A DNA stretch of 64,000 bases from Niveibacterium umoris (GTDB lineage: Bacteria; Pseudomonadota; Gammaproteobacteria; Burkholderiales; Rhodocyclaceae): NCBI RefSeq assembly GCF_014197015.1, contig NZ_JACIET010000001.1:1-64000 (forward strand), read 5' to 3'. Positions 1,052-13,198 of the stretch are shown here, piece by piece. How positions within the stretch are numbered: the stretch's first letter is position 1; every line of letters begins with the position of its first letter. The position numbers were made by a program, and so were the translations under genes. The notes under the pieces are model-generated. The model was not told the DNA's origin and searched no databases. It was given only the letters and a program-made list of their open reading frames with translations.

Positions 1052-1327
1052 TTATTGTCTGATTACTCCGTGCTCTGGTAGCACGATATTGACCTTCAGA
1101 GCTTCGTAGTTGTCCTGCTTTTCAAGCTGCACGGAAATATCATCCGGGTTCACCGTGACGTACTTGGAAATCACCGCGATGAGATCTTTCTGCAGTGCCG
1201 GCAGGAAGTCAGGGCTCGGAGCGCCGTCGTCCGAACGCTGGCGTGCGATGACAACGGTCAAGCGCTCGCGAGCGATGTCGGCGGGCCGCGGCTTCTTCTG
1301 CGTGAAGAGTTCGGACAGCCAGGACAT
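1052..1327 (-). CDS. minE: Cell division topological factor MinE
   Basis: A 91-residue protein, the usual MinE length. The N-terminus [12 protein letters not shown] is the amphipathic membrane-targeting helix. Residues about 13-30 ([13 protein letters not shown]) are the anti-MinCD segment that contacts MinD, and the remainder is the topological-specificity domain. MinE stimulates MinD ATPase and drives the pole-to-pole oscillation that confines Z-ring assembly to midcell. The start codon lies 2 bases after the minD stop, so translation is coupled. It is the last gene of minCDE and ends at a bidirectional terminator. Confidence 0.97.
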
Positions 1328-1329
1328 GA

Positions 1330-2142
1330 TTAAGCTCCACCGAAGAATCGTTTGAGAAGGCCAGGCTTTTCGTAGTTCACGAATCGCAACTCACGTTGTT
1401 CGCCGAGGAAGCGCGCCACGACGTCCTGATACGCTTCCGCCACATCGGTGTTCTTCATGTGGATCGACGGAATACCCTGGTTGGATGCCTGCAATACGAT
1501 TTCCGATTCCGGTATCACCCCGAGGAGCGGCACGCGAAGGAGCTCCTGCACGTCCTTGTACGACAGCATTTCGCCTTCTTCGACGCGTTTGGGCGAATAG
1601 CGAGTAACGATGAGGTGTTCCTTCACCGGCTCCCGACCTTCCTTCGCACGACGGCTCTTGCTTTGCAGGATGCCGAGAATTCGGTCCGAGTCGCGGATGG
1701 ACGAGACTTCAGGATTGGTAACGACGAGCGCCTCGTCCGCGAAAGTCAGCGACATCACCGCGCCGTGCTCGATGCCCGCAGGGGAGTCGCACACCGCATA
1801 GTCAAAGCCCATGTGCTCAAGCTCCTTGAGCACCTTCTCGACGCCTTCCTCGCTGAGCGCGTCCTTGTCCCGCGTTTGGGACGCTGGCAGAACGAACAGA
1901 TTCTCGCAGTGCTTGTCCTTGATCAGGGCTTGGTTCAGCTTCGCTTCGCCGTTGACCACGTTGATCAGGTCGTAGACCACGCGACGCTCGCAGCCCATGA
2001 TCAGATCCAGATTGCGCAGACCGACGTCAAAGTCGATCACAGCGGTCTTGAAACCGCGCAGCGCCAGCCCGGAGGACACCGAGGCGGATGTGGTCGTCTT
2101 GCCCACGCCGCCCTTGCCGGAAGTCACCACGATGATTTTCAC
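1330..2142 (-). CDS. minD: Septum site-determining ATPase MinD
   Basis: A 270-residue ParA/MinD-type ATPase. The deviant Walker A KGGVGKTT lies at residues 10-17, and switch motifs follow ([20 protein letters not shown]). The C-terminal end carries an amphipathic helix ([10 protein letters not shown]) that inserts into the inner membrane in the ATP form. It recruits MinC to block FtsZ polymerisation and is released by MinE. It sits between minC (51-base gap) and minE (2-base gap), the standard order. Confidence 0.98.
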
Positions 2143-2193: not shown

Positions 2194-2970
2194 TCAGCCA
2201 AGCTGCAGCGGGTCGAGCCGCAACTGTGCCTTGTCCCCTTCCCCTGTCAGTGTGATTTGTGCGGCGCGCCCGGCGACCTCTTCGGGAAGCCCGCGCTCAA
2301 AGGTACGGAACACGCCTGCAATCGACACCAGTTCCGCGCCCAGCGAGGTGGTGAAGATGCGCGCCTTCTGGTCGCCTTGTGCCCCTGCGATTGCTCGACC
2401 CCGCAATGGGCCATAGCAATGAATGTTGCCGTCGGCGATGATCTCGGCGCCATTGCTCACGCCGCCGACCACGATCAAGTCGCAACCGCGGGCGTAGATC
2501 TGTTGGCCAGACCGCAAGGGGCGGTCGATGACCATCGAGCGGTTCGCCGATGCGGGCGTGCTCTCCGGATCGGCTTTTGAGGCAACTGGCGCTGCAGCGG
2601 GTTCGGGTTGATTCGCGCCCGCCGCGGGTGCGTTGCGCAGGTCACCCGAAAGTACCGCCAAACCTGCCTTGCGGGCACCGTCGCCGTGGGCCTCTGGAAT
2701 GCCGCGTACGGCAACTGGCTGCAGGCCATAACGGCGCAACAGACTGGCAATGCCAGACCAGTCCATGCGTTCGGGAAGGCTGGTGCCGGTCAGGTCGAGC
2801 ACCGTTGGTTCGCCGGCAAAGAACTCACCCATTCCGCCGAGCATGGCGTGCATCGCGTCCGCGAGCTTCATGACATTGGGGTCGCGCACGATGGCCGTCA
2901 TGGCCTGCAGCGTTCCGCCCTTGAATTCAATGGTCTTGCCGTTGCTGCGATTGGCCTGCATGCCTGTCAT
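2194..2970 (-). CDS. minC: Septum site-determining protein MinC
   Basis: A 258-residue FtsZ inhibitor. The N-terminal domain (to about residue 110) binds FtsZ. A proline/alanine-rich linker of about 40 residues follows, then the C-terminal beta-helix domain (RSGQQIYARGCDLIVVGGVSNGAEIIADG) that dimerises and binds MinD. The ATG at 2970 has a weak ribosome-binding site; an in-frame ATG at 2961 is an alternative. First gene of minCDE. Confidence 0.96.
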   Translation of the reverse strand: MTGMQANRSNGKTIEFKGGTLQAMTAIVRDPNVMKLADAMHAMLGGMGEFFAGEPTVLDLTGTSLPERMDWSGIASLLRRYGLQPVAVRGIPEAHGDGARKAGLAVLSGDLRNAPAAGANQPEPAAAPVASKADPESTPASANRSMVIDRPLRSGQQIYARGCDLIVVGGVSNGAEIIADGNIHCYGPLRGRAIAGAQGDQKARIFTTSLGAELVSIAGVFRTFERGLPEEVAGRAAQITLTGEGDKAQLRLDPLQLG

Positions 2971-3046: not shown

Positions 3047-3898
3047 TCAGTGCAGCGTGGGCGGTGGCGACTTGAAAATCGCGCGCGCCTGGTCTGCATC
3101 GAATCGGTATTCGTGGTTGGACAGATCATCGCGCACGACCACCTCGCCGTGCTCCGCAAGTATGGCTTCGATCTCGGCCGAGCCAAGCGCGCGCAAGGTT
3201 GCGCGTACCTTCTCCCAGTCGGGCAGGAAATCGTGGGAAACAGTGCGTGCCTCGAACAGCCTGAGCGTTTCTTCATGGAACAGACGTTGCAGCAACACCG
3301 GGGCTTCCAGCGATAGAAGCTCCCCTGGCGTAACGGTTTGTGCCAGGCCGGCAACCCGGCGCCAGCCATCCGGGTCTTTTTCGTCGGCGGCGGGCAATTT
3401 CTGTAGAAACAAGCCGGCTGCGTTGTCGCCATCGGCCGCGAGAAATAGTGCTGCGGGCGCCTGTTCCGACTGTCTCAGGTAGTGCTCGAACACTTCCGCG
3501 ATGGTTTCACCTTCGAGCGGGACGTAACTCTGATAGGGCTGTGGCGCGTTCTTTGTGTCGAGGGACAACAACAGACGTCCGTCGCCCAGTAGCTCGCCCA
3601 CCGAACGACCGACGATCGGCCCCTCGGATTTGGCGAAGCCACGCAGGTTAAGGGTTTCGGAGCAGTCGATGACGAGCAGGGGGACTGCGCCGTGGCCAGA
3701 CAGCTGGAAGGTGATGCGACCAGGCGTCTTCAGATTGGCAGCGATGATCGTCGTGACCGCGGCCATCTCGCCCAGCAGAGTCTCGACAGCGGCCGGGTAG
3801 TCGCGGTCGCGCTTGATCTGTTTCCAAACAGGCCCGAGCTGAACCAGGGCGCCGCGCACGTCGAGTTCCTCGAAGATGAAGCGTTGCACGATGTCCAT
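3047..3898 (-). CDS. hslO: Hsp33-family chaperone lacking redox cysteines
   Basis: A 283-residue protein whose whole length follows the Hsp33 pattern: the N-terminal substrate-binding domain (TFQLSGHGAVPLLVIDCSETLNLRGFA), the GLFLQKLPA segment and the C-terminal helix-plus-turn region (LRALGSAEIEAILAEHGEV ... YRFDADQARAIF). In typical Hsp33 the C-terminus holds CxC and CxxC cysteines that bind zinc and act as the oxidative switch. Here the aligned positions are F224, P226, D257 and S260, and the only cysteine is C79. Alignment through the region needs no gap, so this is substitution rather than a frameshift. It starts 2 bases after the ArsC-like gene, so the pair is an operon. It may be a constitutive or differently triggered holdase. 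Confidence 0.88.
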   Translation of the reverse strand: MDIVQRFIFEELDVRGALVQLGPVWKQIKRDRDYPAAVETLLGEMAAVTTIIAANLKTPGRITFQLSGHGAVPLLVIDCSETLNLRGFAKSEGPIVGRSVGELLGDGRLLLSLDTKNAPQPYQSYVPLEGETIAEVFEHYLRQSEQAPAALFLAADGDNAAGLFLQKLPAADEKDPDGWRRVAGLAQTVTPGELLSLEAPVLLQRLFHEETLRLFEARTVSHDFLPDWEKVRATLRALGSAEIEAILAEHGEVVVRDDLSNHEYRFDADQARAIFKSPPPTLH

Positions 3899-8864: not shown

Positions 8865-10529
8865 TCAGACCTTGAAGCGGTTTGCTGCCTCGCGCAGAGC
8901 GACAGCGAAGGCCTGGAGTTCTTCGGCGACACGTGAAGTTTGCTCGGCGGCGTCGGTATTCTCGTGGCTCATGCGTGCAACGTCCTCGACCTGACGCGCT
9001 ATGTCCTGCGCAGCGGCGCTCTGCTCGGTCAAGGCCGCAGAGACTTCACTGATGGCCGATCGAACCTGCGTGGCGGACGCCTGGATTTCGTTCATCCGGC
9101 CAGCTGCCTGACCTGAAAGCGCCTTGCCGTCGAATACGCGATTGATGACTGAATCCATGCCGGACACCGCGTTGCGGGCCGACCCCTGCATCGTGACGAC
9201 CATCTGCGCGATCTCTTCGGTAGCCTTGCTGGTACGTTCGGCGAGCTTGCGTACTTCGTCGGCCACCACCGCAAAGCCACGGCCCTGTTCGCCGGCGCGC
9301 GCGGCTTCGATCGCCGCGTTGAGGGCAAGCAGGTTGGTCTGGTCGGCGACTTCCTTGATCACCTGCATGATCCCGGAGATCCTGTCCGACTGACGGCCCA
9401 GATCGTTGATCGTCTCGCCGGCTGTCTGCACCGTACCTGCGATCTGGTCCATTTCGCTGTTGGTCTGCGCGATGATCGACGCGCCCGAATCGGCGGCCGA
9501 GCCGGCGTCCTGGGCGCGGACCTGAGCGTCGCGGGTGTTGTCGGAAATGTGGTTGATCGACACGGTCATCTCCTTGATGGCCGACGCCATGGCTGCTGCC
9601 GATTCGCTCTGGTTTGCCGAAGCGTCTGAGACCTGCCGCGCTGCCAGAGAGGCCCGGTCCGAGGCTTCCGCGATGCGCGCGGCGTTCGCCAGCACTTCAC
9701 GCAAGGAGCTCTGCATCTGTTCGATCAACTGATTGAAAGCTGACGCGGTCTGGCCGGCCTCGTCATGTGACCGCACCGTGGCGCGCAGCGTGAAATCGCC
9801 GCTACCCGCCACGGCCACGATGGTTCCCCGCATCGCGTCGAGCGACCCGGTGATGGCACGCACGATCAGAAAGGCAAGCACCACGACGGCGGCAATCGAG
9901 CCGAGCGACACGAGTGCCACGAAGCCGCTGAAGCGCGAAACGGTGGCGCCGGCCTGCGCCTGGGTTGCGGCCATCCGCTTGAGGCTGAGGGCCTGGAGTT
10001 TGCCGAGGTCGCCTCGCACCGCATTGGCAGCATTGCGCTGGGCGTCGATCAGCTTGTAGTACGCCTCGAACAGTTCGCGCTGTTTGACCGGCTGATCGTT
10101 GGTGCTGAGGCTGGCGATGACCTCGTTCAGCGCGGTGTCCTGCTCGCGCCAGGCTTCGAACGGTTTCTTCAGCGCGATCCAGGCCTGCTCTTCCTCAGCG
10201 TTGCGGGGCGCGGCGGCGTAGGCCTTCCAGCCTGCGTCGATCTCGCTCCACGCCGCGTCCTTCTGGGCCATCAGCCCCTTGAAGAACTCCTGCGCGTACA
10301 TGTCCTGCTCTTTCAGGGCGACTTCAAGCGTGGCCTCGATCACCCGGGCCTGCCCTGCGCGAACCTGCTGCAGGCCGACCAGGCCGGGCATCTGTTGCTG
10401 CGTGACGCCCGCGAGCGTGGCACCGAGCGCGCGCAGGCCCACCCATCCGCCAAGCGCAGCGGCACCGACCGCAAGGACAGCGATGAATGCGAGGATGCCG
10501 AGGCGCATCCGTATGCTGATGTTGCGCAT
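8865..10529 (-). CDS. Methyl-accepting chemotaxis protein (first of tandem pair)
   Basis: A 554-residue chemoreceptor. TM1 is at about 12-34 and a four-helix-bundle-type periplasmic sensor of about 150 residues follows. TM2 is near 200-222, then a HAMP linker and a long cytoplasmic signalling coiled coil. The hairpin tip [38 protein letters not shown] (split here: [17 protein letters not shown] and [16 protein letters not shown]) is intact and contacts CheA/CheW. There is no C-terminal CheR/CheB tethering pentapeptide. It lies 50 bases downstream of a same-length paralogue with closely matching signalling-domain DNA, pointing to tandem duplication with divergence of the sensor. The ligand cannot be inferred. 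Confidence 0.95.
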
Positions 10530-10579: not shown

Positions 10580-12244
10580 TCAGACCTTGAAGCGCGAAGC
10601 GGCCTCTCGCAGTGCGGATGCGAACGAATCAAGCTCCGTCGAGATCCGGGCGGTCTCCTGCGCTGCGTAGCTGTTGTCCTCGCTCATGCGGGCAACGTGC
10701 TCGACCTGCCGTGCGATGTCCTGCGCGGCGGCACTCTGCTCGTTGAGCGCAGCGGAAATCTCGTTGATCGCTTCGGTGACCTGGGTGGCGGAGCCCTGGA
10801 TCTCGTTCATCCGCGCAGCAGCCTGATCGGACAATTCCTTGCCTTCGAACACGCGGCTCACGACCGAATCCATGCCCGACACCGCATTGCGGGCCGAGCC
10901 CTGCATCGTAACAACCATCTGCGAGATTTCCTCGGTCGCCTTGCGGGTGCGCTCGGCGAGTTTGCGCACCTCGTCGGCCACCACCGCGAAGCCGCGGCCC
11001 TGTTCGCCGGCGCGCGCGGCTTCGATCGCCGCGTTGAGCGCGAGCAGGTTGGTCTGGTCGGCGACTTCCTTGATGACCTGCATGATCCCGGAGATCTTGT
11101 CGGACTGCCGGCCCAGGTCGTTGATCGTCTCGCCTGCCGTCTGCACGGTGCCGGCAATCTGGTCCATTTCGCTGTTGGTCTGCGAAATGATCGTGGCGCC
11201 TGAATCGGCGGCGGTACCGGCTTCATGGGCCCGGTGCTGCGCATCGCGGGTGCTGTCGGTGATGTGGTTGATCGAGACGGTCATCTGTTCGATCGCCGAG
11301 GCCATGGCCGAGGCGGATTCACTCTGGCTGGTGGATGCGTCGGAGACCTGGCGTGACGCCTCGGCGGCCTTGCCGGCCGCGCCGGAGATGCTTTCGGCGT
11401 TGGTCAGCACCTCGCGCAGCGACTCCTGCATTTGCTCGACGAGCTGGTTGAACGCACGGGCGGTCTGGCCGGTCTCGTCGTTGCTCGTCACGTCGGCACG
11501 GATGGTGAAGTCGTTGTTCGTAGCGACCGAGGTGATCGCACGGCGCATCTTGTCGAGCGCGCCCGTGATGCTCTTGAAGAAGAGCCAGCCGAGGGACAGC
11601 AACACCGCAACGGCGATCGCGAACACCGTAAGCATGACGCCGATCGCTGCCTTGCTCGACGTTGCGCCCGACGCGCCGGCTTCTTTCGCGTACTTGACGT
11701 TCAGCTCGACCAGCTTGTTCAGGTTGCGCTCGACTGCGTACTGCGCGTCTTTCCAGTCGGTGACGTAGAAGTAGTACTTCTCGAACAGCTCAGCCTGATG
11801 TTCGAACTCTGTGTTGTTGCCCAAGTCGGTGATCACCGCGTTGAGCTTCACATCGAAATCACGCCAGCGTTTCAGGCCAGGCTCGAGTGTCTTCCACGCT
11901 TTGTCCTCATCCTCGGTGCGCGCCTGAGCCGCGTACGCCTTGAGTGCGGCGTCGAGGGCCGCGGTGGCCTTCTGCTTTCGTTCAAGAATGTTCTTGAACT
12001 GGGAGTTGGCGTATTTCTCCTTCTCCCAGGTGGCCGCTTCAAGCGTGTAGGCGTACAGCGCGTACTGGTTGCTGCGAACGTCAGAGAGCGCGATCACAGA
12101 TGGCAGTTGGGTGCTGCCCAGTTGCGTCATCGCATTGCCAACCCGGCTGATGCCGACCCAGCCGGAAAGACCGACCAGTACGAGTGTGCCGATCGAGATG
12201 AGAACCAGCAGACCGAGTTTGGCCTTGACGGTCAGGTTGCCCAT
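10580..12244 (-). CDS. Methyl-accepting chemotaxis protein (second of tandem pair)
   Basis: Also 554 residues, with the same layout: TM1 near 10-30, a periplasmic helical sensor rich in Lys, Trp and Tyr, TM2 near 200-220, HAMP, and a signalling domain with the canonical tip [17 protein letters not shown]. The last residues (REAASRFKV) nearly equal those of the neighbour (REAANRFKV). The sensor halves differ strongly, so the two probably sense different ligands through the same output module. The start at 12244 follows a GGAGGAGC ribosome-binding site. Confidence 0.95.
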
Positions 12245-12334: not shown

Positions 12335-13198
12335 TTAGCGATTGAGTGTCGCGGCCAGTTCCGAACGGTAGCGGCGTACCAAAGATTCGTCCGGGATCGC
12401 TGCAAACAGTTGCAGCATCATCAGGCGTCCGGCGTCGTCCTCGAAACTGCGGTCGCGACGCACGATTTCGATCAATTGCGCGAGCGCCGGCTCGTAGTCG
12501 CGGCGCGCCGAGAGCAGGCGGGCAAGCGCCAGCCGGGCGCCGAGGTCACCGGGGTTTGCCGCGATGCGGGCTTCCAGCGCGTCGCGTTCGCTGTTGTCCG
12601 GCGCGCCTTCCTGCAGGGCAAGGCGCGCGCGCAGGGCAGCGAGTCGATCGACGTCGCGGGCGGGTTCAGCTGCGCCGTCGATCAACAGGCGGGCGGTCGG
12701 CAGGTCTTGCTGATCGAGCAGCACCTCGATCAGGTCGAAATAGCTGGCTTCGTCGCGTGGGTCGATGTCCTGCGCCTGCTCGAGCAGCGAACGTGCTTCG
12801 TCGAGGCGACCCGCGTCACGGGCGATCCGCGCCGCCTCGCGCAAGGGCGCGGCGGGCGAGGGCAGCAGGCTTTCGATGAAGGCGCGCAGCGTCGCTTCGG
12901 GCAGGGCGCCGGTGAATTCGTCGACCACCTCGCCGGCGACCACGGCCTTCACATTCGGGATACCGCGCACGCCGAACTTCGCGGCCAGCGCCTGGTTCTC
13001 GTCCGAATTGACCTTGGCAAGCAGGAACTTGCCGCCAAACTCTGTGGCGAGTTTCTCGAGCACGGGGCCGAGCGCGCGGCAGGGGGCGCACCAGGGCGCC
13101 CAGAAGTCGACCAGCACCGGTGCGTGGTGCGACGCGGCAAGCACGCGCTGCTCGAAATCGGCGGTGGTGACATCGAAGATGAATGCACTGCTTGCCAT
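12335..13198 (-). CDS. cnoX: Chaperedoxin CnoX (thioredoxin-TPR, YbbN type)
   Basis: A 287-residue protein. Residues 1-110 are a thioredoxin domain with an intact WCAPC active site (C37, C40); the remainder is TPR-like helices ([43 protein letters not shown]). This matches CnoX/YbbN, a holdase that protects clients from oxidation and hands them to GroEL or DnaK. Having both cysteines suggests thioredoxin activity as well, unlike the E. coli form. The ATG at 13198 begins the thioredoxin fold; an upstream extension lacks family similarity. It is divergent from purL. Confidence 0.92.

Follow-up and report, generated by a model that had tools for sequence, protein, structure and literature searches.

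The window analyzed here, a 64,000-nucleotide stretch of Niveibacterium umoris DNA, carries an hslO gene (3047..3898, minus strand) that encodes an Hsp33 without the cysteines of its redox switch. The open reading frame begins with ATG and specifies 283 amino acids, and the product covers the whole of profile PF01430 (positions 1 to 273 of 273) at 213.9 bits, against a cutoff of 21.4. Its closest solved relative is Escherichia coli Hsp33 (1i7f; E value, 9e-43). This full-length match, together with the Hsp33 fold of an AlphaFold2 model, bears out the family assignment of an initial annotation made from the sequence alone; the gap-free alignment to Hsp33 that the annotation described holds for close relatives but not for E. 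coli, against which several short gaps appear. Unlike classic HslO, the protein scores below the cutoff of the NCBIfam HslO equivalog NF001033 (188.5 bits versus 244). The same model gave 259 bits for a four-cysteine homologue, 212 for a two-cysteine homologue, and 162 for a cysteine-free Tepidiphilus protein.

Three regions can be delimited along the gene, all on the minus strand: an N-terminal domain that docks client and linker (residues 1 to 170; 3389..3898), which aligns to 1i7f and 1hw7 (VIA-align Z, 23.5); a linker (residues 171 to 220; 3239..3388); and the former redox-switch domain (residues 221 to 283; 3050..3238), which matches the full-length structures 1vq0 and 1vzy and the NMR structure of the switch domain, 1xjh. 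The linker motifs TxxxxE and RL(Y/F), as defined for the Hsp33 family (PMC7423844), are kept as T188/E193 and R205-L206-F207, and in cysteine-free forms generally they are 95 to 100% conserved. A search of the 4.80-Mb genome, which is 99.5% complete, found no second Hsp33 and hence no cysteine-bearing hslO elsewhere. Additional Hsp33 matches in relatives were considered as second copies and rejected, as they proved to be split or partial copies.

Directly upstream of hslO, at a distance of 2 bp, is a yffB-like gene for an ArsC-family thiol protein with a single cysteine, C10 (3901..4248, minus strand; PF03960, 69 bits; NF008107 ArsC family reductase, 121.8 bits versus a cutoff of 121). Downstream, on the same strand, lie minC (2194..2970; TIGR01222, 180 bits) after a gap of 76 bp, minD (1330..2142; TIGR01968, 341 bits), and minE (1052..1327; NF001422 and TIGR01215, both over cutoff). 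A scan for promoters and terminators around yffB-hslO-minC returned nothing above shuffled sequences, including no terminator-like site between hslO and minC, so the operon with an ArsC/YffB-like thiol gene that the initial annotation proposed is argued from spacing and gene order. Elsewhere in the window, two adjacent genes for methyl-accepting chemotaxis receptors (8865-10529 and 10580-12244, minus strand), of 554 amino acids each, have the look of a tandem duplication.

The encoded protein shares its fold, domain order, linker motifs, and client-binding residues with classic Hsp33/HslO (E. coli 1i7f, Bacillus subtilis 1vzy, and Thermotoga maritima 1vq0). Unlike these, it lacks the cysteines of CxC/CxxC and, with them, both the tetra-thiolate zinc site and the disulfide switch. 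In pairwise alignment, E. coli C232, C234, C265, and C268 fall opposite F224 (3227..3229), P226 (3221..3223), D257 (3128..3130), and S260 (3119..3121), respectively, all on the minus strand; these are the replacements the initial annotation had named, and with all four zinc-binding cysteines absent the thiol/zinc switch is unusable, as it had concluded. A sequencing error or frame problem that might hide the motifs was rejected: seven of seven Niveibacterium genomes sampled encode an Hsp33 without the four cysteines, and these proteins are 69 to 83% identical. The sole cysteine, C79 (3662..3664, minus strand), is an older trait common to switch-bearing relatives, occurring in 46% of four-cysteine homologues and in all two-cysteine homologues.

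To place this protein among its relatives, Hsp33 sequences were gathered from 60 relatives, 58 named loci, and part of even draws of 200 genomes from the order and 120 from the phylum, with low-scoring proteins fetched by preference because they were likeliest to lack cysteines. The four switch positions were readable in 231 distinct proteins, comprising 131 with four cysteines, 51 with two, 9 with one, 40 with none, and not a single three-cysteine form; these counts are weighted toward relatives of the window and describe the sample, not natural frequencies. In all 51 two-cysteine proteins, the survivors are the opening cysteine of CxC and the closing cysteine of CxxC. These proteins come from Azospira, Accumulibacter, Nitrosomonas, and SG8-39-like bacteria, while one-cysteine forms were found in Rhodocyclus and most Propionivibrio and zero-cysteine forms in Niveibacterium, Uliginosibacterium, Thauera, Azoarcus, Zoogloea, Tepidiphilus, Hydrogenophilus, and some Propionivibrio. 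Four of the proteins (L097, L103, and L105, from Tepidiphilus, and L102) have no cysteine anywhere and offer natural zero-thiol test proteins.

For phylogenetic analysis, a careful tree of 62 sequences was built from residues 1 to 216, leaving out the switch columns. All reduced-cysteine forms fall on one side of a single branch (support, 100/99). A larger, quicker tree requires seven state changes overall, and the simplest reading is that the step from four cysteines to two occurred once and that from two to none at least three separate times. The direction of loss is set by rooting among the four-cysteine forms, which occur in every other family sampled. Intermediate stages (C--A, C--S, and S--A) persist in the Propionivibrio line. 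Loss of the switch is thus ancestral and stepwise across a betaproteobacterial clade and is not a quirk of one copy, a history that the initial annotation had missed when it suggested mapping the loss in related genera. In both trees, six two-cysteine Hsp33s of the Nitrosomonas type (L083, L085, L087, L018, L180, and L181) group within the Accumulibacter/Propionivibrio set of the Rhodocyclaceae, a placement from which horizontal transfer is possible.

Gene order follows the same division. A detectable yffB lies directly upstream of hslO at none of the 79 four-cysteine loci, at 18 of the 41 two-cysteine loci, at all 9 one-cysteine loci, and at 29 of the 40 cysteine-free loci. For minC directly downstream, the counts are 0 of 79, 1 of 41, and 30 of 40 at four-cysteine, two-cysteine, and cysteine-free loci, respectively. 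The flanking sequence was too short at a few loci, and a neighbor of extreme divergence could escape detection. Among sampled loci, then, the yffB-hslO pair is confined to the reduced-cysteine clade and hslO-minC almost entirely to its cysteine-free members. These linkages reflect shared ancestry inside one clade rather than independent events. They show that hslO settled into a different, stable neighborhood at about the time of switch loss, which is no evidence of a functional tie to cell division.

The loss of residues required for function, along with the missed NF001033 cutoff, might suggest a degenerating gene whose switch was simply the first part to go. We regard this explanation as extremely improbable. 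Reading frames are intact in all 40 distinct cysteine-free homologues, and the conserved gene order also speaks against it. Synonymous sites were saturated in most Niveibacterium pairs, and the one usable pair gave a dN of 0.010 and a dS of 0.130 (0.008 and 0.126 for the C-terminal domain), that is, a dN/dS ratio of <0.1. Relaxation was likewise not seen in the rates of divergence: the divergence of the C-terminal domain relative to the N-terminal domain is 1.14 for cysteine-free proteins, 1.12 for two-cysteine proteins, and 1.17 for four-cysteine proteins, and the ratio for the linker is 1.07 in cysteine-free proteins (bootstrap range, 1.02 to 1.11) versus 1.26 in four-cysteine proteins (1.22 to 1.31). 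The former switch domain therefore evolves no faster than its four-cysteine counterpart, and the linker evolves more slowly. Where classic Hsp33 has a hydrophobic residue in the linker, hydrophobic character is retained in 99.4% of cases. Switch domain and linker thus remain under constraint, and the view of the initial annotation that the gene is not decaying is upheld.

Within the switch domain, a distinct set of residues has become fixed in the cysteine-free forms: H222 (90%), W/F224 (70%), D257 (98%), L259 (95%), S260 (88%), H262 (85%), Y264 (100%), and R265 (90%). As judged from the alignment, this pattern looks like rebuilding rather than erosion. Several residues of this region (P225, D227, K230, E252, D257, and R265) are shared with the two-cysteine Hsp33s of Azospira, Accumulibacter, Nitrosomonas, and others. 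Unlike the cysteine-free form, the two-cysteine form retains the first and fourth cysteines, between which a disulfide is still possible; C224 and C260 of these proteins might bridge the former zinc site in this way.

The high conservation of H222, D257, and H262 raises the prospect of a different switch in place of the old one, based either on a non-cysteine metal site (H222, D227, D257, and H262) or on the thiol of C79. Against new ligands, the two-cysteine forms hold D227 and D257 just as firmly and in part also have H262, and the Tepidiphilus proteins have neither H262 nor any cysteine. C79 was rejected as a replacement sensor: it predates the loss of the switch cysteines and is not kept in all cysteine-free forms, being missing from Zoogloea and Tepidiphilus Hsp33. 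We consider a replacement switch of either kind very doubtful.

AlphaFold2 was run with a 39-sequence alignment and returned a model with a mean pLDDT of 93.3, with values of 91 to 95 across the switch domain as far as residue 270 and a drop confined to the last ∼15 residues, although the method is blind to metals and tends to fold metal-site domains with or without their metal. The model has the N-terminal domain, linker, and C-terminal domain of the Hsp33 fold and matches 1vq0 of T. maritima (Z, 27.9; 274 residues; 2.8 Å) and 1vzy_B of B. subtilis (Z, 27.2), both matches being full length (270 to 274 residues at 2.6 to 2.8 Å). Its match to the E. coli switch domain solved by NMR (1xjh) is weak. 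Further weak matches (Z, ∼5) to fluorescent proteins are general beta-barrel resemblances. The same picture was obtained for the two-cysteine Hsp33 of Azospira. The model thus supports, short of proof, a stable, zinc-free switch domain and a closed state.

These predictions bear on another explanation, a chaperone that is permanently active because its zinc-free C-terminal domain and its linker are loose, as in E. coli mutants with a destabilized linker or, by analogy, in CnoX of Caulobacter. Classic Hsp33 releases zinc as it is activated, a single linker-destabilizing mutation renders that protein constitutively active (PMC4735815), and holdases of this kind exist in environmental bacteria (CnoX; PMC6282202). 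A linker freed in this manner should relax, however, and here it is tighter than in four-cysteine homologues and is predicted to be docked. A constitutive holdase, one of the mechanisms offered in the initial annotation, is accordingly disfavored by a conserved linker and a conserved switch domain predicted to be folded, and we judge it unlikely; control by heat or unfolding, another of its suggestions, is compatible with the sequence data. CnoX, a chaperedoxin, does set a precedent for lineage-dependent redox control of holdases (PMC6282202), while its fold (thioredoxin plus TPR) is unrelated to Hsp33. The window itself encodes a CnoX/YbbN-type protein (12335-13198, minus strand) with thioredoxin and TPR_19/TPR_20 domains, the only TPR_20 protein over cutoff in the genome. 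Its active site, an intact WCAPC, resembles the Caulobacter type rather than the SxxC of E. coli, making it a further candidate holdase with thiol activity in the same cell.

Since the thiol switch has been lost and selection has kept hslO intact, the protein must be controlled by other means. In classic Hsp33, oxidation alone is insufficient for activation and an unfolding condition is also needed (PMC8282892), and linker unfolding has been described as both necessary and sufficient for activity (PMC4735815). With the thiols gone, the unfolding part of the trigger remains, and our best guess is a redox-blind Hsp33 whose zinc-free former switch domain is folded and is probably opened by unfolding stress, a reading drawn from sequence and model to which we give just short of an even chance. 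An aromatic residue at position 224, with D257 and S260 and the set D227, K230, and R265, would take the place of the zinc site. The switch domain would then fold without metal and keep the linker docked, giving a closed, inactive ground state at any redox state. Only under heat, acid, or another denaturing stress would the linker unfold and expose the client-binding residues F152, W179, and L194, which correspond to the client-contact residues F157, F187, and L202 of E. coli Hsp33 (PMC4735815). The two-part trigger would in this manner keep its unfolding half and discard its oxidation half.

The rival that we take most seriously against a heat-opened holdase is that the clade has kept only a task that reduced Hsp33 performs independently of redox control. 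In E. coli, the binding of EF-Tu, which unfolds EF-Tu and turns it into a substrate of Lon, is restricted to the reduced protein with its switch domain folded (PMC8614738); by this reading, the folded former switch domain likewise binds and unfolds EF-Tu and passes it to Lon, damping translation under stress, and cysteine loss locks the protein in that state. Such a role would account for the survival of a "useless" switch domain that is predicted folded and has conserved new residues. A folded domain acting as a binding surface only should place linker and switch domain under just as much constraint. The client-binding residues and the linker are conserved as well, however, which the EF-Tu role alone does not require, and we hold it to be somewhat unlikely. 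Both readings need a folded domain, so the present data separate them poorly.

Hsp33 serves as the textbook case of chaperone control through cysteine oxidation. In a survey of 1579 homologues, the four cysteines were reported as fully conserved, with <10 proteins lacking the second one (PMC7423844), and a 2021 review calls them "completely conserved" (PMC8282892). The nearest described case, so far as the account in PMC7423844 goes, is Chlamydomonas Hsp33 (Segal & Shapira 2015), in which zinc binding is lost and milder unfolding conditions suffice; by that account it has lost one cysteine only, whereas the cysteine-free forms described here have lost all four, across the clade and by separate steps. 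A literature search found no description of the reduced-cysteine clade, no paper that treats Hsp33 together with Thauera or hslO together with Rhodocyclaceae, and, among the papers listed for a mixed betaproteobacterial query, none on Hsp33, in a search whose coverage of subscription papers was thin, so that an earlier mention is possible.

For the clade as a whole, we offer with some reserve, and at less than even confidence, the account that the thiol switch was dismantled in a fixed order and a metal-free module rebuilt in its place, with a redox-independent role under selection, be it a heat-gated holdase or an EF-Tu/Lon translation brake; in the two-cysteine form, a new C224-C260 disulfide may serve to close the protein and not to open it. 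The reduced-cysteine forms caution against annotating such hslO genes as redox regulated. Together with classic Hsp33, they make up a natural series with four, two, one, and no cysteines, all apparently under selection, with which the switch-dependent functions of Hsp33 could be told apart from the switch-independent ones, the role of reduced Hsp33 among them.
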